From Mesorhizobium loti (GTDB taxonomy: Bacteria; Pseudomonadota; Alphaproteobacteria; Rhizobiales; Rhizobiaceae), in contig NZ_QGGH01000001.1 of the NCBI RefSeq assembly GCF_003148495.1, forward strand, positions 62,986 to 126,985: a DNA stretch of 64,000 nt. Direction: 5' to 3'. The position numbers were made by a program, and so were the translations under genes. This document shows, piece by piece, positions 3,496 to 24,402 of this stretch. A model generated the notes under the pieces. It was not told the origin of the DNA and searched no databases. It saw only the letters and a program-made list of their open reading frames with translations. Each line of letters opens with the position of its first letter. Position 1 is the first letter of the stretch.

Positions 3496-3572
<77 letters not shown>

Positions 3573-8633: not shown

Positions 8634-8663
8634 GGAGCCGCCTTTAAAAAGGCAGGCGGCTCC
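8634..8663 (-). terminator. Attenuating hairpin between binding-protein and permease genes
   Basis: A 9-bp perfect stem, GGAGCCGCC (8634-8642) with GGCGGCTCC (8655-8663), has a 12-base loop and no following T run. In ABC import operons such hairpins after the binding-protein gene usually stabilise the upstream mRNA or partly terminate transcription; that role is inferred here. Confidence 0.6.
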
Positions 8664-8675
8664 GGCGCCCGGCTG

Positions 8676-9788
8676 CTATTTCGAGCCGACAAGCTGGAAC
8701 TTCGATCCCTCGACCTTGTAGAGGTACGATGGGGCGACTTTAAGTTCGCCCGTTTCGTCGAATTCCAGTTCACCCACGGCGGTCTTGACCTTGACCGCGT
8801 GCAGCGCCGTGTTTATGTCCTCGCGCGTCAGGCCCTTGGTCGTCTTCAGCACTTGTTCGAGGATCTGGCCTTGAACATAGCCATAGATCGAGTAAGGGCC
8901 GGCTTCTTCGCCGTACTTGGCCTTGTAGAGTTTGGCGAACTCGGCGATCTCCGGCGAGGCATCCATCGGCGGCACCTGGATGGCGACGAGCGTGCCCTGG
9001 ACGTTGGGCTCGCCGGCCTGTTTGATCAGGTCCGGCGTATAGCCGCCGTCGGGTACGATCAGGGTGGCGGTGATGCCTTGCTCATGCATCTGTTTTGCAA
9101 AGAGCGCCAGCTGCGGCATGACGGCACCGAGATAGATGACGTCGGGCTTCTTCGGCTTGATCTGCGCCAGCACGGCGGCGAAGTCCACATCGCTTGGCGC
9201 GACCGAAATCGTGTCGATGACCTTGCCGCCGCCATTCTCGAAGTTCTTGGCGAAGATTTCGGAGATTCCCTGGCCGAAAACCTGCTTGTCGTTGACGACC
9301 AGCGCCGTCTTGGCGCCAAGCTTGCCGAGCGCGTATTCAGCCGGCAGCAGCGCGCCCGCCAGATCGTTCGCGACCGGGCGCACCATAAGCTTGTAGCCCT
9401 GCTTGGTCAGCGATGGGTTGGAGCCGAAGGTCATCGTCGGCAGCGAGCAATCCTCATAGATCGGCAAGGTGGACTGGGCGACGCCGGAATTGAAGTTGAC
9501 GAGGCCGAGGACGACCTGGTCATTGTCGCAGAACTTCTGCGCCACGAGCGTTCCCTCGCGCGGATCTGCCTTGTCGTCTTCCTGTTCATAGGCGACGGTC
9601 ACACCATTGACCCCGCCATCGGCGTTCAGCTTGTCGACATAGAGCTTGAAGCCATTATGCCATGTGGTGCCGAAATAGGCCTGCGGGCCGGAGAGCGGAG
9701 CGGATAGACCAATCGTGATCTGCTCGGCCATGGCCGGGCCCGCGAATAGCGATGCTCCGAGAAGGAGTGTGGCGATAAATTTTCTCAT
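8676..9788 (-). CDS. Periplasmic substrate-binding protein of LivK type (Peripla_BP_6)
   Basis: A 370-residue type I binding protein for an amino-acid-like or amide-like ligand. A Sec signal peptide covers residues 1-21 with cleavage after PAMA; the mature protein begins EQITIGLSAPLSGPQAYFG, typical of the family. It is the first gene of the transporter operon (livK-H-M-G-F, then the DAO oxidase). A GTGTCGACAC palindrome about 100 bases upstream (9888-9899) suggests control by the adjacent GntR regulator. The ligand cannot be read from sequence. Confidence 0.9.
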   Translation of the reverse strand: MRKFIATLLLGASLFAGPAMAEQITIGLSAPLSGPQAYFGTTWHNGFKLYVDKLNADGGVNGVTVAYEQEDDKADPREGTLVAQKFCDNDQVVLGLVNFNSGVAQSTLPIYEDCSLPTMTFGSNPSLTKQGYKLMVRPVANDLAGALLPAEYALGKLGAKTALVVNDKQVFGQGISEIFAKNFENGGGKVIDTISVAPSDVDFAAVLAQIKPKKPDVIYLGAVMPQLALFAKQMHEQGITATLIVPDGGYTPDLIKQAGEPNVQGTLVAIQVPPMDASPEIAEFAKLYKAKYGEEAGPYSIYGYVQGQILEQVLKTTKGLTREDINTALHAVKVKTAVGELEFDETGELKVAPSYLYKVEGSKFQLVGSK

Positions 9789-9929: not shown

Positions 9930-10715
9930 TTATGCGTCGCGTGCCCTTCGCCGGCGCTTCAGATCAGCGCCGTTGCCGGGCGCGAACACCTTGAGCAGGG
10001 CGTCCTTGAGCGCCTGTTGCGTGGCGGAGACGGTCATTTCGATATGTTCGCGCAGCAGTTTCATGCCGTTTTCGGCATCCCGCCTGACGGCGGCATCGAC
10101 GATGGCCGAATGGGAGGTGATCTGCGCCTTGTCATGCGAGGGATGTTCGATCTGGATGCGGCGGATGAAGCGGATGCGCGCATTGATGGAGCTGAGCTGG
10201 CCGACAAGTTCCGGATTTCCCGACAGTTCGGCAATGAGCAGATGGAAGCCTTCGTCCTCGGCCAGGATGACATCCGGCGGCTGGTCCGGGTAGGCGTCGA
10301 CGATCGCTTCCCAGTAGCTCCGCAGCCGGTCGATTTCACTGTCGTCGGCGCGTTCGCACATCAGCTTGAAAGCAGCGCATTCGATGATCGAGCGGAACTC
10401 GTAGAGGTCGAGCAGGCCCTCGGTGCTGAGGCTTCTGACGAAAAAGCCGCGATTGGGCGTGAGCGAAACGAAACCCTCGGAGGCGAGCCGGTTCAGCGCC
10501 TCGCGGATCGGTGTGCGCGAAACGCCGAGGCTGCGCGAAAGCTGGACCTCATTGATGCGTTCCCCGGGCTTCAGCTTGAACTCCACCAGAAGCTTGCGGA
10601 TGGTGTTGTAGGCGCGTTCGCTGCTGTCGGCAGCGCGGCGCGTTTCGGCCTCGGCGGCAAGGGACGGATCGCTATCGGCGCTGGTCTCGGCTCGTTCGGT
10701 CACGACGATTCTCAT
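9930..10715 (-). CDS. GntR-family transcriptional regulator, FCD subfamily
   Basis: A 261-residue DNA-binding regulator. An N-terminal winged helix-turn-helix spans about 35-93 (INEVQLSRSLGVSRTPIREALNRL), and a helical FCD effector domain follows, with the FHLLIAELSGN segment that often supplies metal or ligand contacts. The start is the ATG at 10715; the open frame upstream of it runs through the divergent promoter. It is divergent from the ProC-like gene, with an operator-like palindrome just upstream of its own start. Together with three more copies nearby, this suggests autoregulation and control of the whole 3.8-24.4 kb island, probably as a repressor. Confidence 0.9.
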   Translation of the reverse strand: MRIVVTERAETSADSDPSLAAEAETRRAADSSERAYNTIRKLLVEFKLKPGERINEVQLSRSLGVSRTPIREALNRLASEGFVSLTPNRGFFVRSLSTEGLLDLYEFRSIIECAAFKLMCERADDSEIDRLRSYWEAIVDAYPDQPPDVILAEDEGFHLLIAELSGNPELVGQLSSINARIRFIRRIQIEHPSHDKAQITSHSAIVDAAVRRDAENGMKLLREHIEMTVSATQQALKDALLKVFAPGNGADLKRRRRARDA

Positions 10716-10813: not shown

Positions 10814-11566
10814 ATGATTGTAGGCATTCTTGGTGTCGGGCATCTGGCGGCGTCCATGCTGGCTGGTTTCCTGCGTTCCGGGCTCGATCCCGCAGCAATC
10901 GTGCTGTCGCCGCGCGGCAAGGCCGCTGCACTTTGCGCCCGGCATGGTTTTCGGTTGGCAACCGACAATCGCGATCTCGTCGAACGGTCCGATGTCGTCA
11001 TTGTCGCCGTACGGCCGGCGCATGCGCCGGACGCGGTCGCTGGTTTGCCGTGGCGCAAGGACCAAGTGGTGGTTTCGGTTTGCGCCGGTGTACCGCTGTC
11101 GCGGTTCGCTGTCGCGCCTGCGCGCGCTGTGCGCGCCATGCCGTTCACGGCTTCCGAAATCTGTGCCAGTCCGACGATCTATTTCCCCGACATTGAGCAG
11201 GCGCAGGCGGTTCTCGACCGGCTCGGCCCCTCGATTGCGCTCGCCAGCGAAACGGACTTCGAGGTGGCGACGGTCAATGCCGCCGTCTATGGCTGGGTGC
11301 AGGATCTGATCCGCAAAACGGCGGAATGGTCGAGCACGCAAGGTCTCGATCCGGCAACTGGCCGCAGGCTGACGGCGCTGACATTCGTGGCCGCCGGGCG
11401 GCTGATTGAGGAGAAGGACCAGCCGATGGACCAAATGCTCGAGGAGCTGGTGACACCGGGCGGCATCACCGAGCGGGGCCTGCAGGTGCTTTCGGCGCGT
11501 GGTGTGCCTGCGGCCTGGGAGGAGGCTTGCACGGCCGTGCTCGACAAATTGATGGGACCAGACTGA
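10814..11566 (+). CDS. Pyrroline-5-carboxylate-reductase-like NAD(P)-dependent reductase
   Basis: A 250-residue protein of the ProC family, which reduces cyclic imines such as pyrroline-5-carboxylate with NAD(P)H. An N-terminal Rossmann motif is visible (GILGVGHLAASML, about 4-16), and the C-terminal helical domain keeps the family motif TPGGITERGL near 215. It is slightly shorter than housekeeping ProC (about 265-270). Its place in a regulated island, divergent from gntR, suggests a dedicated imine-reducing or amine-oxidising step rather than proline biosynthesis; that is inference. No Shine-Dalgarno stronger than GGGGGAC was seen upstream. Confidence 0.8.
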   Translation: MIVGILGVGHLAASMLAGFLRSGLDPAAIVLSPRGKAAALCARHGFRLATDNRDLVERSDVVIVAVRPAHAPDAVAGLPWRKDQVVVSVCAGVPLSRFAVAPARAVRAMPFTASEICASPTIYFPDIEQAQAVLDRLGPSIALASETDFEVATVNAAVYGWVQDLIRKTAEWSSTQGLDPATGRRLTALTFVAAGRLIEEKDQPMDQMLEELVTPGGITERGLQVLSARGVPAAWEEACTAVLDKLMGPD

Positions 11567-11596: not shown

Positions 11597-12346
11597 TCAG
11601 CGTTGCGGCCCGGGCGGATAGGTATGACCGCCGGGTGCCTGTTCGCTTGGCGCAACGATCAATTCGGCGATGTCGACATGGTCCGGCATCCGCAGCGCGG
11701 CAACAAGCACGGCGGCAATATCGGCCGGGCCGAGCGGCCGCTGTTGCGTGTACATGCGCTTGCGCAAGCCCTCGCGGTCGCCGTCGAACGCCTTCAAGTA
11801 GAAATCCGTTTCCACGCGGCCGGGGGCGATCTCGGTCAGCCGCACGCCGGTGCCCGCGAGATCGAAGCGCAGGATGCGGCCGGCCTGGGAAAGGCCGGCC
11901 TTGGCCGCACCGTAGGTCGTCGTGCCGGGAAAGACGCCGCTGGCCGCCGTGCTGGTCAGGTTGAAGATGTGGCCACGCTTGCGCGCGATCATGCCCGGCA
12001 GCAACAGGCGGATGAGCTGCAATGGCGCGGTGAGATTCAGCGCCACCACCTCGGCTGTTTCCTCCGCGCTCTGCTCATGCAGCGCGCGCACGGTCGCCAG
12101 ACCGCCGGCGTTGTTGATCAGCACATCGATTTCCGCCCCACCGAGCGCAGCGGCGATCGCTTCATGATCGCGCACGTCGGCGACAAGCGGTTTTACATGT
12201 GGCCCGAGCTGTGCCTGCAGGACCTGCAGCGCGTCGCGGTTGCGCGCCAGTGCATGGACGGTCAATCCTTCCGCGATCAGGCTCTCGACGATCGCTGCGC
12301 CGATGCCTTTCGAGGCGCCGGTGACGAGGGCGGTGCGATAGGTCAT
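11597..12346 (-). CDS. Short-chain dehydrogenase/reductase (classical SDR)
   Basis: A 249-residue NAD(P)-dependent oxidoreductase. Visible motifs are the cofactor loop TGASKGIG near residues 9-16, NNAGG, a catalytic serine in the NLTSTAAS strand, and the catalytic YGAAK. The start is placed at ATG 12346 because AGGAG lies 7 bases before it; an ATG at 12352 sits too close to that site. It is separated from the upstream 3-hydroxyacyl-CoA-dehydrogenase-like gene by a palindromic repeat, so it may be the last gene of that operon or separately transcribed. Substrate unknown. Confidence 0.85.
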   Translation of the reverse strand: MTYRTALVTGASKGIGAAIVESLIAEGLTVHALARNRDALQVLQAQLGPHVKPLVADVRDHEAIAAALGGAEIDVLINNAGGLATVRALHEQSAEETAEVVALNLTAPLQLIRLLLPGMIARKRGHIFNLTSTAASGVFPGTTTYGAAKAGLSQAGRILRFDLAGTGVRLTEIAPGRVETDFYLKAFDGDREGLRKRMYTQQRPLGPADIAAVLVAALRMPDHVDIAELIVAPSEQAPGGHTYPPGPQR

Positions 12347-12373
12347 GGCCATTCTCCTGAACCGTGATGATCA

Positions 12374-12440
12374 GAGCAATTCCAGGAAAAGTGTGAAACG
12401 GTTTTCCGTCCGGAATTGCGTCAAAACAAAGAGTTAGAGC
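12374..12440 (+). repeat. Dispersed palindromic repeat, copy 1
   Basis: The core has inverted ends GCAATTCC (12376-12383) and GGAATTGC (12412-12419) around GGAAAAGTGTGAAACGGTTTTCC-like sequence, and is followed by a TCAAAACAAAGAGTTAGAGCG tail. The tail supplies the TAA stop of the 12434-13357 gene. Copies 2 (29887-29954, opposite orientation) and 3 (52997-53036, shorter) occur in this window. Confidence 0.85.
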
Positions 12441-13357
12441 GCGCCGTGTGCGGCCACCGTTTTCAAAATGCCGACGAGGCCAGCTTCGCGCGCGGCTTTC
12501 AGGTCTTCCTGGCTGCGCCCGCCCACCGCCGCATTTGTCGAAACCGTGATCGCGCGGATGGTCTCGTTGTCGAGCTTTGCGTCGAGCAGCGTGTCCCAGA
12601 TCGCCTGATAGGTCGGGCCATATTTGCGCAGGAAGTCCTCGATGCCATCGGCATTGAGGCTGTTGGAAATGAACGAACCTTGCAGCGTCCATTTCGCGCC
12701 CGGCCCATACATGAAGGCACGATCCACGTCCTCGACCGAGGCGACGCCGTCGCGCACCAGCGCGATCGCCTCGCGCCACATGGCGCCCATCAGGCGCAAG
12801 GCGATGTGACCGGTCACTTCACGGTTGAGCGTCACCGGCTTCTTGCCGATGGCATCATAGATGGCGTGTGCCCGGGCGATCGCCTGCGGATCGGACGCCT
12901 TGCCGCCGACGATCTCGACCAGCGGCATCAGATGCGCCGGATTGAAGGGATGACCGAGCACGACGCGGCCGGGCTGGCGGCACTCGCCCTGCATGTCGGA
13001 CACCAGCAGGGCCGAGGAGGATGAAGCGATCACGACCTCGTCGCCGATATGGTCTTCGATTTCGGCCAGCAGCCGGCGCTTGAGGGCCAGGTCTTCCGGA
13101 CCGTTCTCCTGCACGAAATCGACGCCTTGGAGCGTCTCGGCGAGCGTCGGAAAAAGATGGATCGCGCCGGGCGCGTGCGAGGATCCTTTCAACGCATCGA
13201 GGTCGGCCATGAGTGCAGGCAGCACCTCATTGAAAGACGCTTCGCGCCGCTCTGTCGGATCGAACACGCGCACCGCGTGGCCGGCATGGGCAAAGCAAGC
13301 CGTCCAGCGCTGCCCGATCACGCCGAAACCGACAATGCCGATGGTCAGTTTTTGCAT
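12434..13357 (-). CDS. 3-hydroxyacyl-CoA dehydrogenase / carnitine-dehydrogenase-like NAD-binding enzyme
   Basis: A 307-residue NAD-dependent 3-hydroxy-acid dehydrogenase. An N-terminal Rossmann fold (GIVGFGVIGQRW near residue 7) is followed by the family's catalytic region with GHPFNPAHLMPLVEIVGG near 135-155, and then a helical C-terminal dimerisation domain. Length fits the short one-domain members such as L-carnitine dehydrogenase and lambda-crystallin-like gulonate dehydrogenase (about 310-320). The ATG overlaps the upstream stop as TGATG, so it is coupled to the unknown gene 13357-14226. The substrate is probably a beta-hydroxy acid or its CoA ester; which one is not decidable here. Confidence 0.82.
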   Translation of the reverse strand: MQKLTIGIVGFGVIGQRWTACFAHAGHAVRVFDPTERREASFNEVLPALMADLDALKGSSHAPGAIHLFPTLAETLQGVDFVQENGPEDLALKRRLLAEIEDHIGDEVVIASSSSALLVSDMQGECRQPGRVVLGHPFNPAHLMPLVEIVGGKASDPQAIARAHAIYDAIGKKPVTLNREVTGHIALRLMGAMWREAIALVRDGVASVEDVDRAFMYGPGAKWTLQGSFISNSLNADGIEDFLRKYGPTYQAIWDTLLDAKLDNETIRAITVSTNAAVGGRSQEDLKAAREAGLVGILKTVAAHGAL

Positions 13358-14226
13358 CACCCGGCCTTCCTTCCGTCAAGCGCTGCGCGGAAGGCCTCGT
13401 TGAGGTCATTCCACGGGATGAGGAGATCGAGCCAGGCGCCGATCCGTCCGGTAACCAGGATTGCCTCGTCGATCAGGGCGTCGAAAGGATATCGATCGTC
13501 CATCGCCGCCTTGAGGCGGAAAAGCAGGGCCGGCGTTTCCTCCATGTGGCAGAAGTCGCGCAGCCGGGTCGCGGTCTTGTCGAGTGCGATTGCTGCCGCC
13601 TGGCGCAGCACCAATTCGTCCTTCCTGCCGCGCTCGGCGCGGACCCACCACAGGAATTCGTGCAGCACCCGCGCTTCCGACTCCGCGGTGAAGACGGGAC
13701 CTGCCGGGTGCATGATGGCGCGTGACGCGGTGACCCGGCTGATGTCGGCGGGACAGGACGCCCACAGCGCCTTGCGCGCGGCGATGATATCCTGCGGCAA
13801 TGGCGACGGCGGCGATGGCTCGGACACGCTGCCATCCGACCGGCCTAGCGTGCCTTCCAGAATGCGGCGGCCCTGGTCCCGCTTCAGTGTCGCGGCAAGC
13901 TCGGCAATGCCTTCCACCGGCGCGTCGAGATGGCCGAGAACGGTGATCTCGGCATTTTCCGCCTGGAGCGGCGCGAAGGTGATTTCGAGGAACTGCCGCA
14001 CCGGCCAGTAGATGAAGGCGCCGGCGGTCGCGGAAAGCACATGCGTAGCACCCTCGATATCCTCGACGATGGGAGCATGCCAATAGATATGGCTGCCAGC
14101 GATTTTGGGCGTGTGAAGCTGCAGACGCATGGGCAGGGCCAAAAGCAGCGCACGGCGCGTGCGCTCGGCATCGCCGGTCAGGCGCAGCGGCCAGCTGCGC
14201 CCTTCAGCCGAGAAGATCAGGTCCAT
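13357..14226 (-). CDS. Unknown two-part protein, possible cyclophilin-like N-terminal domain
   Basis: A 289-residue soluble protein that I do not firmly recognise. The first 140 residues are strand-rich (for example IAGSHIYWHAPIV, SATAGAFIYWPVRQFLEITF, AEITVLGHLDAPVEGIAELAATL) and recall the cyclophilin-like DUF3830 family, in which such GxIxYWP and small-ligand strands occur. After a proline-rich linker near 150-160 (SEPSPPSPLP) the C-terminal part is helical and charged. It sits in the acetoin-dehydrogenase-like operon between NIPSNAP and the carnitine-dehydrogenase-like gene, so a catabolic role is likely. The DUF3830 link is a guess from pattern. Confidence 0.6.
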   Translation of the reverse strand: MDLIFSAEGRSWPLRLTGDAERTRRALLLALPMRLQLHTPKIAGSHIYWHAPIVEDIEGATHVLSATAGAFIYWPVRQFLEITFAPLQAENAEITVLGHLDAPVEGIAELAATLKRDQGRRILEGTLGRSDGSVSEPSPPSPLPQDIIAARKALWASCPADISRVTASRAIMHPAGPVFTAESEARVLHEFLWWVRAERGRKDELVLRQAAAIALDKTATRLRDFCHMEETPALLFRLKAAMDDRYPFDALIDEAILVTGRIGAWLDLLIPWNDLNEAFRAALDGRKAG

Positions 14227-14227
14227 C

Positions 14228-14551
14228 TTACTTTCCGGGATTGAAGAAGGAGACGGGTTTGAGGATCTGGTTGCGCATGTCGAGAAGATAGTCGGTCTCG
14301 ATCACCTTGCGCCGATACGCCTGCCATTCGGGATCGGCCTCCATGCGGTCGCGCCGGTCCTCCCGGTCGGCCAGGCTTTCATATTTCCACAGATGCACGG
14401 TGCGCGACAGGTCGCCGATGTGCGTCTGGAAAAAGCCGAAGGGCTCGCCCAGATAATGCTGCTGCATCGGCAGGCCGACGTCTTCATAGAGTTTCAGGAA
14501 ATGCGACAGCTTGTTCGGGCGGGCGGTATAGGTGCGATGGTCGAAAATCAT
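14228..14551 (-). CDS. NIPSNAP-family protein
   Basis: A 107-residue single-domain protein with the ferredoxin-like NIPSNAP pattern: opening IFDHRTYTARPNKL, a central GFFQTHIGDLSRTVHLWKYESLADRE, and a hydrophobic ending ILKPVSF. The family is common in bacterial catabolic operons, usually without known enzymology. The start is ATG 14551, preceded by AAGGAG at a good distance; a GTG three codons upstream is less likely. It follows the E2-like gene in the same operon. Confidence 0.88.
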   Translation of the reverse strand: MIFDHRTYTARPNKLSHFLKLYEDVGLPMQQHYLGEPFGFFQTHIGDLSRTVHLWKYESLADREDRRDRMEADPEWQAYRRKVIETDYLLDMRNQILKPVSFFNPGK

Positions 14552-14616
14552 ATCGAGCACTCCTTCTGGCGTTCTGTATCCGGTGCCTTCGGCGCCGGCG
14601 TGATGGTCTTGTCGGC

Positions 14617-15933
14617 TCAGCCGGCGCTTCGCACCGTCTCGGTGATCAGCCGGGCTGTGAGCGCCGGTGCTTCAATCTGCGGTACATGGCCGACGCCATC
14701 GAGAAGATGAACAGCAGTGAAGCCTGGCGCGCGGACTGCATGAGCGACCGGGATGACGCGGTCGAGCCTGCCCCAGATGAACCGCGTCGGTACGGCGAGC
14801 TCGGCAAGCGCGCCCGCGAGATCGAAACCCTGCGTGCCGTCCGGGAACAGGCTTTCGGCCATCGCAGCGAGCGCGTCGCGATTGCCGATCTTTTCCATCT
14901 GCCTGAGCGCGGCCTGCGCATAGCCGACCGGCAAGGCCGATGGGTCGCCGACCATCACCGTCAGCCACCGCTCCAGGGCCTGCACCGTGGTCGCGCGGGC
15001 GAGACCGGCAATGAAGCCGGCATTGATCTCGGGGCCAAGCCCGCCAGGGGCAAGGAGCGTGACAGAGCGCACCGTAAGACGGCCAAGTCGGGCGAGCGCG
15101 AGAGCCGCCGCACCGCCGAGGGAATGGCCAACGAGATGGGCATTGCCGACGCCCATATCCTCCAGCCGGTCGGAGAGGAGGAAGGCGATCTCCTCGATGC
15201 TGCTTGCGGGTCTTGCCGCTTCCGCACCATGGCCGGGCAGGTCGAGGCTGATCGTCTCGATCCCCGGCCCGAGCAAGGGCACGACCTGCCGCCACACCGA
15301 GCGATCCGCCCCGAAGCCGTGGATGAGGACTACCGGCACCGTCTGCCGGGCCAGCGTCGGCGCGGCAACAGGCGATGCCTGGGCTGCAGCCGGCGTTCGC
15401 AGGACCGCGCCGTCATGTTCGTTCGAGCGGGCGGCCAGGATGGAATCGATGTCGCGCTTCTTGATGCGCCCATGCGGGCCGCTTCCCGAAATGGCGGCAA
15501 GGTCGAGCCCAGCCGCGGCGGCAAGCCGCCGGGCCAGCGGGCTTGCGACTGCACGGCTGCCGGGCGGCCGGATGGAGGAAGGCGCTTCGCTGGCCACAGG
15601 CTCGCGCGGATTGGATTCCACAGCTGTCGCCGTGGTCGGCGCTGTCGAAGCGGATTGGCCAGCGATCGGCTTCCCGCCAACTATCGGTTTCTCATCCGCG
15701 ATCGTGCCGAGCACCGCGCCCACCGGCGCTTCCTGTCCCTCGGCGAAGAAGATTTCCGCCAGCCAGCCGTCGCGGTCGGCTTCGATTTCGGTTGCGGCCT
15801 TGGCCGTCTCGACGGTGACGAGAAGATCGCCGGCCTTGACCGCATCTCCTGATTTCACCGCCCAGCCGATCACCAGCACGGTTTCCATATATTCGCCGCC
15901 GGCGCTGTCGATGCTGATCGGATGGGTCGCCAT
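14617..15933 (-). CDS. Dihydrolipoamide acyltransferase (E2)-like protein fused to alpha/beta hydrolase, AcoC-like
   Basis: A 438-residue fusion with three parts. A lipoyl domain covers about 1-80 (lipoylated lysine K45 in ETAKAATEI), and a peripheral-subunit-binding domain about 129-166 (ASPLARRLAAAAGLDL...GRIKKRDID). The alpha/beta-hydrolase fold, about 198-438, has nucleophile S271 in GHSLGG plus the acid in LDRVIP and the histidine in VGHVPQ. This is the layout of acetoin dehydrogenase E2 (AcoC) with an extra binding domain. The start is ATG 15933 with GGAGG upstream; a GTG at 15948 overlapping the E1beta stop is the alternative. No E3 gene is nearby, so a shared lipoamide dehydrogenase is presumably used. 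Confidence 0.88.
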   Translation of the reverse strand: MATHPISIDSAGGEYMETVLVIGWAVKSGDAVKAGDLLVTVETAKAATEIEADRDGWLAEIFFAEGQEAPVGAVLGTIADEKPIVGGKPIAGQSASTAPTTATAVESNPREPVASEAPSSIRPPGSRAVASPLARRLAAAAGLDLAAISGSGPHGRIKKRDIDSILAARSNEHDGAVLRTPAAAQASPVAAPTLARQTVPVVLIHGFGADRSVWRQVVPLLGPGIETISLDLPGHGAEAARPASSIEEIAFLLSDRLEDMGVGNAHLVGHSLGGAAALALARLGRLTVRSVTLLAPGGLGPEINAGFIAGLARATTVQALERWLTVMVGDPSALPVGYAQAALRQMEKIGNRDALAAMAESLFPDGTQGFDLAGALAELAVPTRFIWGRLDRVIPVAHAVRAPGFTAVHLLDGVGHVPQIEAPALTARLITETVRSAG

Positions 15934-15944
15934 CGCCGCCTCCG

Positions 15945-16919
15945 TCACTTCAGCGTCTTCAGCGCGGCCGTGCGGATCTTCTCGGCACTTGGCAGCATCG
16001 CCGTTTCCAGCGGTTCGGAATAGGGGATCGGCATATCCGGCAGCGTGACGCGCGCGACAGGCGCGTCCAATTCGTCGAAGGCGTGGTCCATGATCGTTGC
16101 CGAGAGCTCGGCGGCGTAGCCGCAGAAGCGCCAGCCCTCGTTGACCACCACGGCATGGTGCGTTTTCGCGATCGAGGCGACGATGGCGTTGACATCGAGC
16201 GGGCGCAGCGACCGGAGGTCGACGATTTCGGCTGAAACACCGTCTGCTGCGAGAAGGTCGGCGGCTTTCAGGGCCTCGACCACCATCTTGGAGGTGGCGA
16301 ATATCGAGATATCGCTGCCCTCGCGCAGGGTTGCCGCCTTGCCGAGAGGCACGATCACATCGCCTTCCGGCACCTCGCCGCGGGTGTTGTAGAGCAGCTT
16401 GTGCTCAAGGAAGACGACCGGCTGGTCGTCGCGGATCGCGGCCTTCAGCATGCCCTTGGCATCGGCCGGCGTCGAAGGCGCGACGACCTTGATGCCGGGT
16501 ATGTGGGCAAGCATGGAATCGAGCGACTTGGAGTGCTGTGCGCCCGCACCGGCGCCGCCGCCGCCCTGCGTGCGCAGCACGAACGGCATCTTCACCTGGC
16601 CGTTCCAGATATAGTTGTAGATCGAGGCCTGGTTGACCAGCGCATCGAGCGTCAGCGGCACGAAATCCGCATACATGATTTCAAGCACCGGACGGGTACC
16701 GGTCATGGCGGCGGTCACCGCCATGGCGGTCAGCGCCTGTTCGGAGATCGGCGTGTCGCGCACCCGCGTTTCGCCGAATTCCTCCATCAGCCCTTTCGTC
16801 ACCTTGAAGACGCCGCCATAGCGGCCGATGTCCTCGCCGAAAACGAACACGGAAGGGTCGGCCTGCATCTCTTCGCGCAGTGCTGCATTGAGCGCTTCGG
16901 CGTACCGCATCATGGCCAT
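15945..16919 (-). CDS. 2-oxo-acid / acetoin dehydrogenase E1 beta-like subunit
   Basis: A 324-residue transketolase-fold E1 beta subunit. Visible landmarks are FGEDIGRYGGVFKVTKGL near 27-45, EIMYADFVPLTLD near 100, and the QGGGGAGAGAQHSKSLDSMLAHIPGIKVVAPSTP region near 120-155 that shapes the TPP site. With the E1alpha-like protein it would decarboxylate a 2-oxo acid or cleave acetoin, handing the acyl group to the E2 lipoyl lysine. It sits between E1alpha (1-base gap) and E2 in one operon. Similarity is to AcoB/PdhB; the natural substrate is unknown. Confidence 0.9.
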   Translation of the reverse strand: MAMMRYAEALNAALREEMQADPSVFVFGEDIGRYGGVFKVTKGLMEEFGETRVRDTPISEQALTAMAVTAAMTGTRPVLEIMYADFVPLTLDALVNQASIYNYIWNGQVKMPFVLRTQGGGGAGAGAQHSKSLDSMLAHIPGIKVVAPSTPADAKGMLKAAIRDDQPVVFLEHKLLYNTRGEVPEGDVIVPLGKAATLREGSDISIFATSKMVVEALKAADLLAADGVSAEIVDLRSLRPLDVNAIVASIAKTHHAVVVNEGWRFCGYAAELSATIMDHAFDELDAPVARVTLPDMPIPYSEPLETAMLPSAEKIRTAALKTLK

Positions 16920-16920: not shown

Positions 16921-17892
16921 TCAGTGCGCCTCGCTGTAGGGGTTGCAGGCTTCGTCGAGCGAGAATTCGGGCATCGGGTCGGAGAGGGCGGCCGCGAATG
17001 CCTCGTCTACCTCGGCCTTGGCCGCGGCCTCGATCCCGGCAAGTTTCGCCTCGCCGACGTCGCCCAAGAGCGCCTTGCGCGAGACCAGCAGAGGGTCACG
17101 CGCCTTCCAGGCCGCAATGTCCTCCGGCTTCTGGTAGCCGCCCATGTCGGAGGTGGAAAAACCCTCGATGCGGTAGGTCTTGCATTCGACCATGCCGGGA
17201 CCCTCGCCACGCCGGGCACGCTCGACCATGGTCGACACGGCGCGGTAGACGGCCACCGCGTCATTGCCGTCGACGATTTCGGCGGGCATCGCATAGCCGG
17301 CGGCGCGGATCGACAGATCCTCGACCGGCGACTGGACTTCTGAGGGAACGGTCAGGCCGAACTGGTTGTGTTCGAGCACGAAGACGACCGGCAGCTTCCA
17401 CAGCCCGGCCATGTTCATGGCCTCGTGGCAGATGCCGGTCTGCGCGGCGCCGTCGCCGAAAACGCACATGGCGACATTGCCGGTGCCGAGGATCTGCATC
17501 GACAGCGCCATGCCGGTGGCGGCCGGAATGCCCGCGCCGACAATGGCGTTGCCGCCGATCACGCCCTTTTCGGCATCGGCCACCAGCATGTGGCCGGCGC
17601 GCCCGCCGCAGGCACCGGTGGCCCGACCGAAGATCTCGGCCACCACGGGGTGCACGGCCATGCCCTTGCCGATATAGACCGCGTGGCCGCGATGGGTGGT
17701 GGCAACCTTGTCGCCCGCCTCCAGCACGGCGGTCGCGGCGACACCGACGGCTTCCTGGCCATCGCAGCGATGGATCGGGCCGCGCGTGCGTCCCTCCTTG
17801 TGAAGCGCTCCAAGCCCCTCTTCCAGATGCCGCACCAGCAGCATCCGGCGATAGATTTCCAGATGTTGTTCGACGGAAGGAGTGTTTTTCAC
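16921..17892 (-). CDS. 2-oxo-acid / acetoin dehydrogenase E1 alpha-like subunit
   Basis: A 323-residue TPP-binding subunit with the pyrophosphate-binding motif GDGAAQTG...HNQFG near residues 155-190 and the HRGHAVYIGKGM region near 75. The start is a GTG at 17892 (protein begins MKNTPSVEQ) preceded by GGGGA. The open frame continues upstream but runs through the promoter. This is the first gene of the operon E1alpha-E1beta-E2-NIPSNAP-unknown-HCDH, with the best operator palindrome 35 bases upstream (17927-17942). Confidence 0.9.
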   Translation of the reverse strand: MKNTPSVEQHLEIYRRMLLVRHLEEGLGALHKEGRTRGPIHRCDGQEAVGVAATAVLEAGDKVATTHRGHAVYIGKGMAVHPVVAEIFGRATGACGGRAGHMLVADAEKGVIGGNAIVGAGIPAATGMALSMQILGTGNVAMCVFGDGAAQTGICHEAMNMAGLWKLPVVFVLEHNQFGLTVPSEVQSPVEDLSIRAAGYAMPAEIVDGNDAVAVYRAVSTMVERARRGEGPGMVECKTYRIEGFSTSDMGGYQKPEDIAAWKARDPLLVSRKALLGDVGEAKLAGIEAAAKAEVDEAFAAALSDPMPEFSLDEACNPYSEAH

Positions 17893-17926
17893 TGGTATCC
17901 CCGAGTTCGTGCCGAAATTAAATACA

Positions 17927-17995: not shown

Positions 17996-18742
17996 ATGCG
18001 TTTGAAGGGCAAGGCGGCCATCGTCACCGGCGCCGGCGCCGGTATCGGCGCAGCCGTCGCGGAACTGTTTGTGAAGGAGGGCGCGCGCGTTCTGGTCGTC
18101 GACCGCGACGGCGCGCGGGCCAGCGAGGTGGCCGACAGGACCGGAGCGCTGGCCTTTGAGGCGGACGTCTCGGACGAAGCCTCCGTGGCGACGATGGTGC
18201 GCCGCGCGCAAGAGGCATTCGGCCGGGTGGACATCCTGGTCAACAATGCCGGCTACGGCATACGCGGCTCGGTCGTCACCACTGCGGCGGCGGATTGGGA
18301 CGCGCTCATGGCCGTGAACCTCAAGGGCGTCTTTCTCTGCTCCAAATACGTCATTCCTGTCATGGCCGCGGGTGGTGGCGGGGTGATCGTGAACACCGCC
18401 TCCAACGTGGCCCATGTCGGACTTGCCGATCGGGCGGCCTATGTCGCCTCCAAAGGCGGCGTCGCGGCGCTGACGCGTGCCATGGCGCTTGACCATGTTG
18501 CAGACAAGATCCGCGTCAACGCCGTGGCGCCGGGTGTTACCTGGTCGAGCTATTTCGAAACCATGCTGGAAACTCATCCCGACCCTCAGGGGTTTGTCGC
18601 GGCATTGAATGCGCGTTCGCCGATGAATCGCGTCGCGCAACCGACTGAAATCGCAAATGCAATCCTGTGGCTCGCCAGCGACGAATCTTCTTTCGCCACC
18701 GGCTCGATCCTGACGGTCGACGGCGGCATGAGCGCCTGGTGA
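17996..18742 (+). CDS. Short-chain dehydrogenase/reductase (classical SDR, 3-oxoacyl reductase-like)
   Basis: A 248-residue SDR with cofactor loop TGAGAGIGAA near 13-22, NNAGYG near 88, catalytic YVASK near 155 followed by GGVAALTRAMALDHV, and the C-terminal GSILTVDGGMSAW typical of FabG-like members. The start is ATG 17996 with AAAAGGGG upstream; 38 further in-frame codons would cross the operator. It is transcribed alone, divergent from the E1/E2 operon and convergent with the mutase-like gene. It likely oxidises or reduces a hydroxy/oxo intermediate of the island's pathway. Confidence 0.88.
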   Translation: MRLKGKAAIVTGAGAGIGAAVAELFVKEGARVLVVDRDGARASEVADRTGALAFEADVSDEASVATMVRRAQEAFGRVDILVNNAGYGIRGSVVTTAAADWDALMAVNLKGVFLCSKYVIPVMAAGGGGVIVNTASNVAHVGLADRAAYVASKGGVAALTRAMALDHVADKIRVNAVAPGVTWSSYFETMLETHPDPQGFVAALNARSPMNRVAQPTEIANAILWLASDESSFATGSILTVDGGMSAW

Positions 18743-18782
18743 GGCGCGCGCCAGTCGATGGCGGAAAACGAAGCCTGCCGCT

Positions 18783-20522
18783 TCAGGCAACAGGCCGGAT
18801 GGAACGCAGGGCACTCAGCATCTCGTCGAGATCGGCGCAGGGCAGGCAGCCAAGGTCCGCTATATCCTTGGTCACGTCGACAGGCAGGCCCGAATTGGAC
18901 TCCTTGGGCACTTCGTTCAATCGTCCGCCGATGAGCACCGGCAAGGCAAGTCCGCGTGCCGCCATCGCCGCTTTCACGGCCTGTGCATAACGCAGCGCCA
19001 CGCCGTTGTAGGTGCTGACCGCGATGGCATCGGCCCCTGTTTCGGCGGCGCGGGCGACGAGCGTTTCCGGGTCGACAGCCACACCGGCATCGGCGATGAC
19101 GATGCCCAGACCTTCGAGCGCCTGTTCGACGAGGTATTTGCCGTGCTCATGCACGTCGGTGGTGCCGATGCAGACGGTTAGGGGTTTAGGGCTTTCCAGC
19201 GGCTTTTGCGTTGCGACCCAGGCGACGGCCTTGTGGTTGAGCTCGCGTGCCCATTCGGCATGGATCAGCGGCGTGCGCCCGCGCATGCCGTCCGCGCCCG
19301 GGCCGAACAGCGCCTCCATGCGTTTCGGCCCCATGCGGCGGATGGCGAACATCAGCGCGGCCGGGTCTTCGGTATCCACCCCGCGCTCGGCCAGCCCCTT
19401 CATGACGGCATCGGCAAAACGGCGCCCGCCTTCGACCAGCACATCGGCCATTGCCTCCACCTTGGTCCAGTCGAAGACCGGATCGTAGAACGGTGCGTGC
19501 AGCGTGAGCCGGTGTGCGAAGGTCTGCGCATCGATGATCTCATCGACATCGGGAATGCGCTGGTTCTCGGTCACCGGCACCGGATTGATCGCATGGCCGG
19601 AGGGCCATCGCCCAACGGCGAGAATGTCGGCCAGGAGATAACTTGCCAGGCTGGCGTAGTTGCCCGCCGGGGTCGACTGATAGGAAACGGTGTTGCCGAA
19701 GATCATGGTGCCCGGCGTGTCGCTGACCCGCACCAGCGCGGAATGGAAAGCAGCGCGCGACAGCGGATCGCTGAAGTGGTGGCCGTAGCAATGGCCGAGC
19801 CGCGCGCCGATCAGATCCTCGACGATGTGCTTTTCGACCAGCACCATGCCGAGCGCGCAGGCCATGTCGATGAACAGCCCGGCGAAGCCGTCGTCGAGAT
19901 TGGAATGGACAAGGATTTCGGCCTCCTGCGCGGCAATCAGGCCGAGCGCGGTGACGGTCGCTTCGGTGGTCGCCACATCATCGTCCCAATAGGGCAGCCG
20001 GAAGGTGAAATACTGTCCCAGATTGCCGATGGCCGTTGCCCCGGCGGCGATGGCGGCGCGGGTGTTTTCCACCGCGCCCGGCAGGCCGAGCATGAAGTCG
20101 CCGAAATGAGCGGCGGCCGGCGCGGCATTGGTGATGCGCGCGAAATCCTCGGGGCCGGTGAGCACGATGCCGGTGCCGCGCGCAGCCTTGGCGCGCATGG
20201 CCTGGGGATAACCCATCGACCAGTCGAGAGTGATGCCGAAACGGTCGACCGTTACGCCTGCCTTGCGGCATTGCTCATGCACCTCGCCGATCGCCGCCAC
20301 GGTGCGATCGACGCTTCTGAAGCCGATATGGGCGTGCTGCATGACGCGCTTTTCGGCCGCCGCCTTGCGCTTCCACGCGGCCTCGGACGGCATCCCGGTC
20401 TCGGTAAGGAAGCGGCAGCTGCCGAGGCACCAGTCGCGCGCCATGGTGCGTCCTTCGGCGAGGAGGTAGGCGCCAGGCTTGAGGCGCGGGTCGATGAGTG
20501 CGGGGGCGATTTCAGCGGTCAT
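18783..20522 (-). CDS. Cobalamin-dependent mutase-like protein with fused C-terminal B12 domain
   Basis: A 579-residue protein. The C-terminal 140 residues form a base-off/His-on cobalamin domain: DVHEHG at 456-461 (DxHxxG, ligand H458), exactly 41 residues, then STY at 503-505 (SxL position, Tyr instead of Leu), 26 residues, then GG at 532-533. The N-terminal 440 residues look like a TIM-barrel catalytic domain. Size and order resemble a fusion of glutamate mutase E (about 480) and S (about 137) subunits, but I cannot assign it to a characterised mutase. It overlaps the upstream hydrolase gene by 11 bases and lies in an operon with aspartate-dehydrogenase-like and cupin genes. No MeaB-type chaperone or cobalamin riboswitch was seen. 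Confidence 0.8.
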   Translation of the reverse strand: MTAEIAPALIDPRLKPGAYLLAEGRTMARDWCLGSCRFLTETGMPSEAAWKRKAAAEKRVMQHAHIGFRSVDRTVAAIGEVHEQCRKAGVTVDRFGITLDWSMGYPQAMRAKAARGTGIVLTGPEDFARITNAAPAAAHFGDFMLGLPGAVENTRAAIAAGATAIGNLGQYFTFRLPYWDDDVATTEATVTALGLIAAQEAEILVHSNLDDGFAGLFIDMACALGMVLVEKHIVEDLIGARLGHCYGHHFSDPLSRAAFHSALVRVSDTPGTMIFGNTVSYQSTPAGNYASLASYLLADILAVGRWPSGHAINPVPVTENQRIPDVDEIIDAQTFAHRLTLHAPFYDPVFDWTKVEAMADVLVEGGRRFADAVMKGLAERGVDTEDPAALMFAIRRMGPKRMEALFGPGADGMRGRTPLIHAEWARELNHKAVAWVATQKPLESPKPLTVCIGTTDVHEHGKYLVEQALEGLGIVIADAGVAVDPETLVARAAETGADAIAVSTYNGVALRYAQAVKAAMAARGLALPVLIGGRLNEVPKESNSGLPVDVTKDIADLGCLPCADLDEMLSALRSIRPVA

Positions 20523-21324
20523 GATGTTTGCTGTCGGCCTTGGCAATGAAACGACGAATGATGGCGGCAAAACCTTCGGGGTCGGCGAGGGGATGAAAAT
20601 GCGCACCGGGAACTGAAACAAACCGGGCACCCGGTATCGCAGCGGCGATCGCCTCTGAAAGGGCTGATGGCGTCAGGATATCGCCGGCGGCCGCAATCAC
20701 CTGGACCGGGGCGTCGATGCGCTGCAGATCGTCAAGGCGGTCGTGGTCGAGCAGCATGCGCACGCGCGCGGCGCTCACCGTCAACGGCGCCAGGGTGCGG
20801 GGGGCGGCGGTGACGGCAGCTTCAAGCTGCCCGGCGTTGGTATCAAGGTAGGACGGCTCGTGGCAGAGCACATGGCCTAGGCGCTGGTAGGTCTCGGCTA
20901 GGCCGGCCTCCAGCAGCTCGGCGCGGGCGCTGAAGAGCGTGCGGAAACGGCTGTCGGCGCGCGCCCAGGAACTACTGATCGTATAGCTCAGGCCGAGTTC
21001 CGCATGATCGAGCGCCAGCACCTGCGCGATGGCGCCACCGGTGGAATGCCCGACAATATGGGCGGGCCCGCCCGTCTGCACCAGGAGGCCGGCAATGTCG
21101 CTGGCGATCAGGGGAATGGAGCAGGGGCTTTCCGGGCGATCGCTGCGGCCGGCGCCGCGATGGTCGGTGACGATGATGCGATGGTCGGCCTCGAGCAGGC
21201 GTACCACACCAGCCCAGAATCTTCCGTCACCGCCGAGCCCCGGGATGAGGATGAGGCGCGGGCCATGGCCGCCTGATGTCTCGTAGTGGATGCGGCAGCC
21301 ATCGGCGGCGGTGAAGAAGGGCAT
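20512..21324 (-). CDS. Alpha/beta-fold hydrolase
   Basis: A 270-residue hydrolase with the catalytic triad visible: nucleophile in GHSTGG near residue 93, acid in GDILTP near 218, histidine in AHFHPL near 246. The oxyanion-hole region reads LIPGLGGDGRFW. It resembles 3-oxoadipate enol-lactonase and other small-ester or C-C hydrolases. The start overlaps the aspartate-dehydrogenase-like stop as TGATG and its end overlaps the mutase-like start, so the three are translated together. The substrate is unknown. Confidence 0.88.
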   Translation of the reverse strand: MPFFTAADGCRIHYETSGGHGPRLILIPGLGGDGRFWAGVVRLLEADHRIIVTDHRGAGRSDRPESPCSIPLIASDIAGLLVQTGGPAHIVGHSTGGAIAQVLALDHAELGLSYTISSSWARADSRFRTLFSARAELLEAGLAETYQRLGHVLCHEPSYLDTNAGQLEAAVTAAPRTLAPLTVSAARVRMLLDHDRLDDLQRIDAPVQVIAAAGDILTPSALSEAIAAAIPGARFVSVPGAHFHPLADPEGFAAIIRRFIAKADSKHHDR

Positions 21325-22100
21325 CAGTTGCGGCCCTCCCTGTCGAGCAACTCGCCAAGCGCCGCGACGAGGCTGAGCGCGGTCAGCGCCGAAGTCTTGG
21401 GATTGCCGGGCGAGGGCGCGTTGACGAGGCGGAAGGAAGCGCTGCCGGCGGAGCTCTCGACCTCGATTTCATGCGTGTTGCCGGTGGCTCTCGGATCGGC
21501 AACCACGCTAACGGTGACCTTGTCGATGCCTGCCGCGAGCGCCACGGCGAAGGCGGCGTTGAGGTTTTTCGGATAGAGTTTTGCCGCTTGCGCGGGCGTG
21601 CCCTCGAAGAGCGATACTGCTTCGTGCTCGGCTGACAGGCCAAGGGCGGCAAGCTCGGCTCTCCAGGCTGCCTGCGGCTTGCGCGAGGTGTAGCGCACCC
21701 GCGCCTCGGGAAGGGCCGCTATCGCCCTGAGATAGTCGAGGCCGCCCAACGCGCCTGACGGCAGGATCAAGCGCGCGCCGCTGTTGCGCGAAGCATCGGT
21801 CAATCGGGCGGCAAGTATCGGATCGGAGAACGCACCGATCGAAGCGATCATGGTCGGGATGCCGGCGTCGAGAAGCGCCGGCACATAGGCGGCGACTGCC
21901 TGCTGGCTTGCCGCCTCCACCACCGCCCTGGGGCGCGCCTCGATCAGCGCATCCAGCCGCGTGACAGCGCTGACATTCGCCGGCACTGCGGGGCGGGCGC
22001 CTTCGCGCGTCAGCGCTACCCAGCGACATGAGTCCTGCGGGAAAGCGGAGACGATCTCGCGCGCGATCGTGCCGAAGCCGATGAGGCCGAGCGTCACCAT
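21324..22100 (-). CDS. Aspartate-dehydrogenase-like enzyme (NadX family)
   Basis: A 258-residue NAD(P)-dependent amino-acid dehydrogenase. It shows the Rossmann motif GFGTIA near 8-13, the central PSGALGGLDYLRA near 118, KLYPKNLNAAFAVALAAGIDKVTVSVVADP near 180-208 with a following NTHEIEV (likely catalytic His), and the NAPSPGNPKTSALTALS ending. The family deaminates L-aspartate to iminosuccinate or runs the reverse. Here the setting is catabolic, so an aspartate analogue is plausible; next to a B12 mutase, a 3-methylaspartate-like compound is one hypothesis. Confidence 0.85.
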   Translation of the reverse strand: MVTLGLIGFGTIAREIVSAFPQDSCRWVALTREGARPAVPANVSAVTRLDALIEARPRAVVEAASQQAVAAYVPALLDAGIPTMIASIGAFSDPILAARLTDASRNSGARLILPSGALGGLDYLRAIAALPEARVRYTSRKPQAAWRAELAALGLSAEHEAVSLFEGTPAQAAKLYPKNLNAAFAVALAAGIDKVTVSVVADPRATGNTHEIEVESSAGSASFRLVNAPSPGNPKTSALTALSLVAALGELLDREGRN

Positions 22101-22111
22101 CCGAGGCTTCT

Positions 22112-22648
22112 TCAGGGGTTCTGTTTCAGAGGATCGAACTTGTCGGCGAGGTCTGCCCCGAACACTGTCTTGCGCTCGATTTCCAGGACGTTTTCCGGGC
22201 GCGGGAAATTGGAGGGCACACGGTCGCCGGGCTTGCGCGGCTTGCCGATCAGGCGAAAGAAGTCCTCAAGCCCGTTCGGCACGATCAACCAGATCCAGCG
22301 AAGGCGCGTATCGCCATCGTTGATGAACATGTGACGGACATTCTTCGGCAGGAACACAACGCTGTCCGGTTCCAGCGGATATTCCTTGCCGTCGATGACG
22401 GCGCGGCCATGGCCTTCGATGACGTAGACCGTCTCTTCGTTGCGGTCATGCGTGTGTTCGCGAACATAGCCGCCGGGCGCTACCGATTGCGTGCCCAGTG
22501 CGAAGGGGTGCTCCATGCCGACGATGTGCGGCGCGAGCGCGACGTCGATATGGCCGTTTGCCGGTACCGGCTGCCAGTAGCTTTCGCGCGTTTCGGTTCC
22601 GGAAACATGGATGCCTGTCGGCGCGGGTTGAAGGCGGGTGTCGTCCAT
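22112..22648 (-). CDS. Cupin-domain protein
   Basis: A 178-residue single cupin. Metal-binding residues are visible in EHTHDRNEETVYVIEGHG (about residues 69-86) and in the second motif around PKNVRHMFIN. Cupins in such settings act as dioxygenases, isomerases or binding proteins. The start is ATG 22648; the open frame before it runs into the operator. It is the first gene of the operon cupin-AspDH-hydrolase-mutase and is divergent from the KstD-like gene. Confidence 0.85.
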   Translation of the reverse strand: MDDTRLQPAPTGIHVSGTETRESYWQPVPANGHIDVALAPHIVGMEHPFALGTQSVAPGGYVREHTHDRNEETVYVIEGHGRAVIDGKEYPLEPDSVVFLPKNVRHMFINDGDTRLRWIWLIVPNGLEDFFRLIGKPRKPGDRVPSNFPRPENVLEIERKTVFGADLADKFDPLKQNP

Positions 22649-22720
22649 GGCTCTGCCTCTCGAAAGGAGCTGCGAAGGTCGTGCGGGGCACGCTGCTGAC
22701 CAAGAGAGGGTACAGCGCAA

Positions 22721-22733
22721 AAAGTGTCGACAC
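22721..22733. promoter_or_regulatory. Putative GntR operator, site 4 (AAAGTGTCGACAC)
   Basis: The core GTGTCGACAC at 22724-22733 lies between the divergent cupin operon (start 22648) and the KstD-like gene (start 22798), nearly midway, and is preceded by an A tract as in site 3. Confidence 0.72.
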
Positions 22734-22797
22734 AATAGTAGACAGATTAAATTTCCTGCCTCTATAGTGCCGTGATGATGATGGCAGGGGAATGCCG

Positions 22798-24402
22798 ATG
22801 GGCGAGTACGACGTTCTGGTGATCGGTTCGGGATCGGCGGCCTGCTCGGCGGCGCTGCGGGCCGCCAAGGGCGGCCTCAAGGTGCTTGTCATCGAAAAGA
22901 GCGAATGGCTGGGCGGCACCTCGGCCATGTCCGGGGCCGGGGTCTGGATACCCGCCAACCATGTCGCGGCCGAAGCCGGCATCGCCGACAGCCGCGAGGA
23001 TGCGCTCGCCTATCTGCGCGCGGTCGCGCCCGAAGGGTGGGAGCAGAAGGAAGATACGCTCTGGGGCGCGTTCGCCAAGGCCGCTCCGGACATGCTGCAC
23101 TTCCTGTCCGTCAACACGCCGCTCGATTTTCGCCTGATCAACGAGCCGGACCCCTTTGCCGAAGCGCCTGGCGGCAAGCTCTACGGCCGCATGCTCTCGC
23201 CGAGGCCGCTCAGCCGCCGTATCCTGGGCAAGTTTGCACGGAGCCTGCGCCGCTCAACCCTTCCCCACAGTTTCACCTACCAGGAGATCGTCGACCTCGA
23301 TCTTTATCACCATCCTATCCGAGCCGGGTTGAAGGTCTGGCCGAAGCTTCTATGGCGATGGCTGACGAATTCCGGCGGCCAGGGCACGGCTCTCATGACC
23401 GGGCTCATCAAGGGCTGCCTCGATGCCGGCGTCACATTTCAGCCGGGAACGCGTGCCGTCACCCTGCTCCAGGACCCGGACTCGCGCATCACCGGCGCGG
23501 AAGTGGAGAGCGAGGGCCAACATACGAAGATCGTCGCGCGTCGCGGCGTCGTGATCGCAACCGGCGGCTTCGAATGGGACGCCGAGATGCGTGCGCGCCA
23601 CTTCCCCGGCGCCTTCGACCGGATCGGCAGTCCGCGCGGCAATGAGGGCGACGGCCAGAAGCTTGCGGCTTCCGTTGGCGCGCAGCTGGACCGCATGGAT
23701 CAGGCGAACGTCTATCCCTGCCTGCCGACGCGCTACCAGGGAAAATCGCACGGCTTGCCGATGACCTTCCAGGCCGAGCCGCACTCGATCGTCGTCGATC
23801 GCGATGCAAAGCGCTTTGTCAGCGAAAACGCGTTCAACATCGGCGAGGCGATCGATGCGCGCGGGCCGGACGGCGCGCCGATCCATCTGCCCTGCTATCT
23901 CGTTGGCGATCATCGTTTCCTGAAAACGTCGCTGCCTTTCCGCTGGTATGCCTCCTACGAGCGCGATTGGATCAAGAAGGCCGATACGATCGCTGGCCTT
24001 GCCGCCAAGCTCGGACTGCCGGCAGCGGCGCTTGAGGAGACAATCGCCCGCTGGAACGGCTTTTGCGCGAAGGGGCACGATGCGGACTTCCAACGCGGCG
24101 ACAACGGTTGGGAGGCATACAAGGCGCATGGCCCCGAGAATCGGCTGAAGCCGATCGACAAAGCGCCCTATGTCGGCATGACGATCAATCGCTCGATCCT
24201 CGGCACCAAGGGCGGCGCTCGCACCAATGAGCGCGCGCAGGTGTTGAGGCCGGACGGTTCGATCATCCCCGGCCTCTATGCGGCCGGGCTTGCCATGGCC
24301 AACCCCATCGGCACCCGCGCCGTAGGAGCCGGCACGACGCTGGGGCCCAATCTGACATGGGGCTTCATCGCCGCCGAGACGATCCTGCATCAAAACCGGT
24401 AA
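22798..24402 (+). CDS. FAD-dependent oxidoreductase, 3-ketosteroid-dehydrogenase / fumarate-reductase-like
   Basis: A 534-residue flavoprotein of the FAD_binding_2 family. It has the N-terminal dinucleotide motif IGSGSAACSAALRAAKGGLKVLVIEK near 8-33, then LGGTSAMSGAGVWIP, a GTALMTGLIKGCLDAG segment, and a C-terminal GTRAVGAGTTLGPNLTWGFIAAE that closes the flavin site. Members desaturate C-C bonds in steroids and other ring or acid substrates. Steroid genes are absent here, so a 2-ene-forming dehydrogenation of another substrate is more likely. The start ATG 22798 has GGGGA 6 bases upstream. An operator-like palindrome lies 65 bases before it. Confidence 0.85.
   Translation: MGEYDVLVIGSGSAACSAALRAAKGGLKVLVIEKSEWLGGTSAMSGAGVWIPANHVAAEAGIADSREDALAYLRAVAPEGWEQKEDTLWGAFAKAAPDMLHFLSVNTPLDFRLINEPDPFAEAPGGKLYGRMLSPRPLSRRILGKFARSLRRSTLPHSFTYQEIVDLDLYHHPIRAGLKVWPKLLWRWLTNSGGQGTALMTGLIKGCLDAGVTFQPGTRAVTLLQDPDSRITGAEVESEGQHTKIVARRGVVIATGGFEWDAEMRARHFPGAFDRIGSPRGNEGDGQKLAASVGAQLDRMDQANVYPCLPTRYQGKSHGLPMTFQAEPHSIVVDRDAKRFVSENAFNIGEAIDARGPDGAPIHLPCYLVGDHRFLKTSLPFRWYASYERDWIKKADTIAGLAAKLGLPAAALEETIARWNGFCAKGHDADFQRGDNGWEAYKAHGPENRLKPIDKAPYVGMTINRSILGTKGGARTNERAQVLRPDGSIIPGLYAAGLAMANPIGTRAVGAGTTLGPNLTWGFIAAETILHQNR

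Follow-up and report, generated by a model that had tools for sequence, protein, structure and literature searches.

The question raised by this 64,000-nucleotide stretch of the Mesorhizobium loti genome (contig NZ_QGGH01000001.1; hereafter, the window) is what chemistry is performed, and on what compound, by the 579-amino acid product of the gene at window positions 18783-20522 of the minus strand, a predicted adenosylcobalamin-type mutase that combines a TIM (triosephosphate isomerase) barrel (residues ~13-440) with a B12-binding domain (~445-579). In our assessment, the protein is fairly probably a single-chain adenosylcobalamin mutase, from a family for which we found no characterised member, that helps to break down a cyclic amino or imino acid. 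No description of the family appeared among the listed matches in the full-text literature, most subscription journals being outside its reach.

The cofactor can be addressed through the C-terminal domain. As the original prediction held, this open reading frame (ORF) carries an exact base-off/His-on signature, namely, D456-x-H458-x-x-G461, followed after 41 residues by S503-T-Y505 and after a further 26 residues by G532-G533; the intervals separating DxHxxG, S and GG are unchanged in 71 of the 71 relatives compared (the best 80 loci minus 9 near-duplicate or cut ones), and the Pfam B12-binding model PF02310 matches residues 455-535 above its cut-off (E-value 3.5e-10; 40.2 bits, cut-off 32.1). 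The NCBIfam matches of this C-terminal part, to methylaspartate mutase S, MetH and MtgC, are sub-threshold. The genome encodes an adenosyltransferase as well as MeaB. Elsewhere in the same genome, a small B12-binding ORF is followed by MeaB (G000:C2:32825-34053; L113, L110), and this pair probably represents a further adenosylcobalamin mutase locus.

The barrel presents a different picture, in which sequence is silent and predicted structure is informative. At an E-value of 0.001, the first ~440 residues find no counterpart in Pfam or NCBIfam, and when solved structures were searched by sequence, starting either from the single protein or from a profile of 36 rows, significant matches (E<0.001) were confined to the B12-domain end; no mutase barrel was among the matches, which elsewhere were few, weak and stray. 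PF06368, the glutamate mutase epsilon family, is likewise absent from the protein at an E-value of 0.001, and has no match in the M. loti genome. The original description of the enzyme as unassigned is, in this respect, borne out, in that Pfam, NCBIfam and an hhalign comparison with GlmE do not assign it to any characterised family. The AlphaFold model, built with 36 sequences, reached a predicted local distance difference test score (pLDDT) of 90.8 and a predicted template modelling score of 0.91. A Foldseek search with this model put methylmalonyl-CoA mutases at the top, with ornithine aminomutase and glutamate mutase within the best 25 matches, and in VIA-align comparisons, residues 13-464 fit the barrels of B12 mutases best: glutamate mutase E (1cb7_B; Z 27.8, root-mean-square deviation 3.5 over 363 residues), lysine 5,6-aminomutase (Z 26.1), ornithine aminomutase (Z 21.6) and methylmalonyl-CoA mutases (Z about 16-20), compared with Z 15-17 for the non-mutase barrels of IspG, ThiC and DHPS. 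The B12 domain aligns with GlmS (1i9c; Z 16.1). The model thus supports the assignment of the N-terminal part to the mutase-class TIM barrels, and the putative ~440-residue barrel of the original prediction falls within, rather than outside, that class.

Conserved residues appear to divide the active site into a familiar and an unfamiliar half. E319 lies in the sole E-x-x-x-[IV]-P of the mutase (V-P-V-T-E319-N-Q-R-I-P), and the pattern P-x-x-E-x-x-x-I-P around it recurs in all 71 relatives. GlmE contains K326-T-P-H-E330-A-I-G-I-P, with the same E-x-x-x-I-P spacing and apparently at the same site behind the barrel strands. In the literature, Glu330 of glutamate mutase, Glu370 of methylmalonyl-CoA mutase and Glu338 of ornithine aminomutase are described as contacting the adenosyl group (PMC4413051), and Glu330 as contacting its ribose hydroxyls (PMC3958899). 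The barrel also holds residues invariant in 36 of 36 rows, namely, H63, R69, D100, H139, D142, N167, R175, H206, N208, D210, D211, H248, H249, H310 and N313, whereas 33 of the 36 have H65. In an uncertain hand alignment, H65, G104 and H139 fall at the substrate-binding arginines of GlmE, Arg66, Arg100 and Arg149, and N167 falls at Glu171. With E319 retained and H65, G104, H139 and N167 apparently at these GlmE positions, the cofactor side of the enzyme looks, to judge from sequence, like that of the class, and the substrate side unlike that of glutamate mutase.

The best-matching members of the family are largely alphaproteobacterial. A scan of the genome collection found at least 207 stretches with a relative, and the best 80 of the 207 comprise 75 from NCBI-ranked Alphaproteobacteria and, unranked, 4 from Bosea and 1 from a Pseudomonadota bin. 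The family is present in 3 of 299 genomes of a Pseudomonadota sample and, as a near-full-length copy, in 6 of 25 genomes within the genus (one clipped by a contig end), the M. loti genome being included in both counts; 9 plasmid records contain it, 8 of these with 80% or more of the query, and a scan of viral contigs returned no relative. One genome (G028) encodes two members, L019 and L020, which share 47% and 33% identity with the query, L020 branching very far out. On a Rhizobium lentis plasmid (L016, 7833-8798), only the C-terminal part is present (query residues 334-577, 40%), near IS66 genes, and is likely a relic.

What the enzyme might act upon is suggested by the company it keeps. Neighbouring ORFs were clustered across 88 loci, near-duplicates included, from which 39 representatives were drawn as a less redundant set; partner counts refer to the 35 representatives with at least 14 kb of sequence, the 4 shorter ones having been dropped. 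A reductase of the pyrroline-5-carboxylate reductase family (ProC-like) is found in 20 of these 35 neighbourhoods, an aspartate dehydrogenase (AspDH)-like enzyme in 13, a cupin in 13, a NIPSNAP protein in 12, an alpha/beta hydrolase in 11 and LivK in 11. One or the other of the ProC-like and AspDH-like enzymes is encoded in 28 of 35 (both in 5), or in 29 when a further AspDH-family gene detected by hidden Markov model at L091 is counted. The AspDH partner emphasised in the original prediction does, therefore, recur beside divergent relatives (13 of 35, plus L091), but the commonest partner, the ProC-like enzyme, had not been listed. In many loci, the ProC-like gene overlaps the mutase gene or lies within 40 bp of it, and in the deep branches L015, L018, L100, L101 and L102 the two are adjacent and co-directional.

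A second association is with genes of the hydroxyproline type. In L067, a co-directional series encodes a cupin, a short-chain dehydrogenase/reductase (SDR), AspDH, a DadA-like protein, a 4-hydroxyproline epimerase (NF010578; 576.9 bits, cut-off 376), the mutase, a DapA-like protein, a T3LHyp dehydratase-like protein (439.9 bits, under the cut-off of 550) and a hydrolase. In 16 of 88 loci, DadA, HypE and T3HypD homologues are all encoded, with DapA also present in 13 of the 16; L015 and L045, which are distant on the tree, have another set beside the mutase, consisting of a proline-racemase-family protein, DapA, DadA and an aldehyde dehydrogenase. Altogether, hydroxyproline-type genes lie near the mutase in 18 of 88 loci (16 + 2), or in 8 of the 39 non-redundant ones. 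A PhyH-family dioxygenase gene stands beside ProC in 7 of 88 loci, of which one clade accounts for six (the Pfam assignment being for the L064 copy). The link to hydroxyproline-type genes points to a cyclic amino or imino acid rather than to the glutamate/3-methylaspartate pair of the original prediction.

These observations can be combined into a tentative mechanism. H458 would ligate cobalt, the B12 domain would close over the barrel, and E319 would hold the adenosyl ribose; homolysis of the Co-C bond would then yield a deoxyadenosyl radical that would start a 1,2-rearrangement of a free amino or imino acid, one not bound to CoA, with the nearby AspDH-like or ProC-like enzyme performing the matching amine/imine redox step. 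The importer, regulator, hydrolase, dehydrogenases and acetoin-type E1/E2 encoded around the mutase would together serve to catabolise a cyclic compound, imported and similar to an amino acid, and the conserved gene set as a whole probably breaks down a compound resembling an amino acid. To our knowledge, CoA-independent B12 mutases are few and come mainly from fermenting anaerobes. The more specific proposal, that a cyclic amino or imino acid of the hydroxyproline type undergoes an aerobic, CoA-free radical rearrangement (ring contraction, ring expansion or skeleton shift) on the enzyme, seems to us possible but unlikely. Glutamate, 2-methyleneglutarate, pipecolate, betaines and opines were also considered as substrates, and dropped for lack of evidence.

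Several observations weigh against the assignment to an adenosylcobalamin mutase of cyclic amino or imino acid catabolism. The pairing of E319 with Glu330 comes from a hand alignment. An hhalign comparison of the mutase profile with GlmE detected no homology (probability 0.3%), a weak negative, the GlmE side consisting of 2 rows; in the absence of similarity between the barrel sequences, the link to glutamate mutase is through the predicted fold alone. A cobalamin riboswitch was looked for across the window at Rfam gathering scores, and none was found. As regards the neighbourhoods, the identity thresholds for partner calls were set after the clustering had been seen, neither a ProC-like nor an AspDH-like gene is present in 6 of 35, and the AspDH-like gene of L019 is on the opposite strand, 2.2 kb away and 38% identical. 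The cluster in the window itself has no gene of the hydroxyproline type; proline-racemase-family genes are found elsewhere in the genome. Finally, the clades differ, with hydroxyproline genes belonging to the Ancylobacter group and E1/E2 and KstD mainly to rhizobia, and such varying gene content could mean that several pathways share one enzyme.

Among the alternatives, an adenosylcobalamin eliminase, which would act on a vicinal amino alcohol, for instance ring-opened pyrroline-4-hydroxy-2-carboxylate, and split off its ammonia, survives best, improbable as we consider it. It would accord with the 16 of 88 loci with hydroxyproline-type genes alongside, co-directional in L067, and with a barrel rich in invariant His, Asp and Asn in which the hand alignment does not find the arginine set; however, mutases head the structural list, and the ammonia-splitting step could be performed by the DapA-like enzyme present in 13 of the 16 loci. 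That no eliminase barrel is among the 50 structural matches listed by VIA-align does not speak against eliminases.

A diverged glutamate mutase, which would convert glutamate to 3-methylaspartate for subsequent oxidation to methyl-oxaloacetate by the AspDH-like enzyme, is possible but not favoured, and we rate it slightly lower still. GlmE is the best structural match, and the likeness drawn in the original prediction to fused glutamate mutase E and S holds for the predicted fold of both barrel and B12 domain, the His-on signature and a glutamate at the spacing of Glu330. It does not extend to the barrel sequence, in which no similarity is detected by profile and PF06368 is absent, and may not extend to the substrate arginines, in whose places the uncertain hand alignment puts H65, G104 and H139, with N167 in the place of Glu171. 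The domain order differs as well: the B12 domain is C-terminal in the mutase, whereas in two Pseudomonadota PF06368 relatives of GlmE it stands in front (fused genes at L108, 1474-3405, and L109, 1477-4080). The AspDH-family partner exceeds the cut-off of its family and can be aligned with aspartate dehydrogenases of solved structure, which would suit this route; yet AspDH is missing from 15 of the 20 ProC neighbourhoods, and one genome (G056) contains a PF06368 enzyme alongside a member of the mutase family.

No better placed is an enzyme akin to 2-methyleneglutarate mutase, acting on an unsaturated dicarboxylate. 2-Methyleneglutarate mutase is a single chain of similar size, with a barrel followed by a B12 domain; the partners here, however, are amino- and imino-acid dehydrogenases. 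A corrinoid methyltransferase-type protein is very improbable: the His-on motif is common to MetH and MtgC-like proteins, and homologues of MttB-type methyltransferases lie near the mutase in 3 of 88 loci (L054 by Pfam, L091 and L100 by BLAST), but the protein contains no methyltransferase Pfam domain and DHPS barrels score far below the mutase barrels.

The other B12 mutases provide partial parallels to the single-chain mutase that we favour. Lysine 5,6- and ornithine 4,5-aminomutases share the barrel fold, act on amino acids and have a partner dehydrogenase for the product; the Pfam model that matches them is absent from the mutase, and its B12 domain is, presumably, too short to accommodate the PLP (pyridoxal phosphate)-lysine part of the PLP-dependent aminomutases. 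Methylmalonyl-CoA-type mutases share the order of barrel and B12 domain, but their mutase Pfam domain is missing here, and none of the four genes of the operon is identified by Pfam as a CoA-ligase or acyl-CoA gene.

This operon runs on the minus strand from 22648 to 18783, in the order cupin, AspDH-like enzyme, hydrolase, mutase, with an 11-nt gap followed by 1- and 11-nt overlaps. The first gene encodes a small cupin (PF07883; 22112-22648, the start being a chosen ATG, with the longest ORF beginning at 22735). The AspDH-like enzyme (21324-22100) exceeds the cut-off of the subfamily model NF009828 (194.6 bits, cut-off 177), matches PF01958 (103.2 bits) and aligns over residues 38-251 with the solved aspartate dehydrogenase 1j5p; it is under the cut-offs of the other NCBIfam equivalog models for aspartate dehydrogenase and differs from L-aspartate dehydrogenase in its setting, a catabolic cluster with a mutase. 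The gene for the alpha/beta hydrolase (Pfam; 20512-21324) has 11 nt in common with the start of the mutase gene. Where the mutase gene ends, a stem-loop resembling a terminator (18772-18796, minus strand) is a consensus match only, the region containing 8 such sites compared with 3.5 expected. Of the gene neighbours named in the original prediction, the hydrolase, AspDH-like enzyme and cupin stand, whereas the KstD-like FAD (flavin adenine dinucleotide) enzyme (22792-24402) is on the plus strand, divergent, so that the operon consists of the four genes only. This protein is under the cut-offs of the best 25 NCBIfam models listed, including that of the 3-ketosteroid dehydrogenase equivalog (best score 356.9 bits, cut-off 788).

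Beyond the mutase, a plus-strand SDR gene (17996-18742; Pfam and NCBIfam), convergent with it, is a conserved neighbour in many loci. It is followed on the minus strand by genes for 2-oxoacid/acetoin dehydrogenase E1 alpha-like (16921-17895, start approximate) and E1 beta-like (15945-16919) subunits, an acetoin-dehydrogenase-type E2 fused to an alpha/beta hydrolase (14617-15948; NF011457, 310.2 bits, cut-off 307), a NIPSNAP-family protein (14228-14560; Pfam) and a conserved protein (13357-14226) clustered in 32 of 88 loci, with no Pfam or NCBIfam match and a low-confidence model (pLDDT 62.7); Pfam does not back the label DUF3830 for it. Also on the minus strand are a 3-hydroxyacyl-CoA/carnitine dehydrogenase-like gene (12434-13360), below equivalog cut-offs, and a second SDR gene (11597-12352; best NCBIfam model YdfG, below cut-off). 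The ProC-like reductase of the window (10814-11566), ~7 kb from the mutase and on the plus strand, scores below both NCBIfam cut-offs (130.2 of 254 and 114.6 of 196.75 bits). The remaining genes are on the minus strand: a GntR/FCD regulator (9930-10709, start approximate), the Liv (branched-chain-amino-acid-type) ATP-binding cassette importer (5110-9788) and a DAO-family amine/imino-acid oxidase (3828-5117; closest to the NCBIfam model for L-pipecolate oxidase, with 244.3 bits against a cut-off of 600). The importer comprises a substrate-binding protein (8676-9788; Pfam), permeases (7605-8555, 6610-7605) and an ATPase (5110-5874) named through 85-87% identical annotated genes of L013, and a further ATPase frame between the named permeases and ATPase. 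Rhizobial loci such as L014, L025, L035 and L040 share the long cluster that extends from KstD as far as the Liv importer. A 23S-5S rRNA and tRNA-Met set (224-3572) directly precedes the catabolic cluster in the window.

If the rearrangement of a hydroxyproline-type compound is real, it would amount to new chemistry within an undescribed catabolic pathway of soil and marine Alphaproteobacteria. A mutase family tied to amino- and imino-acid dehydrogenases and to hydroxyproline-type genes offers a concrete way towards a new radical enzyme and, perhaps, a new nutrient pathway.

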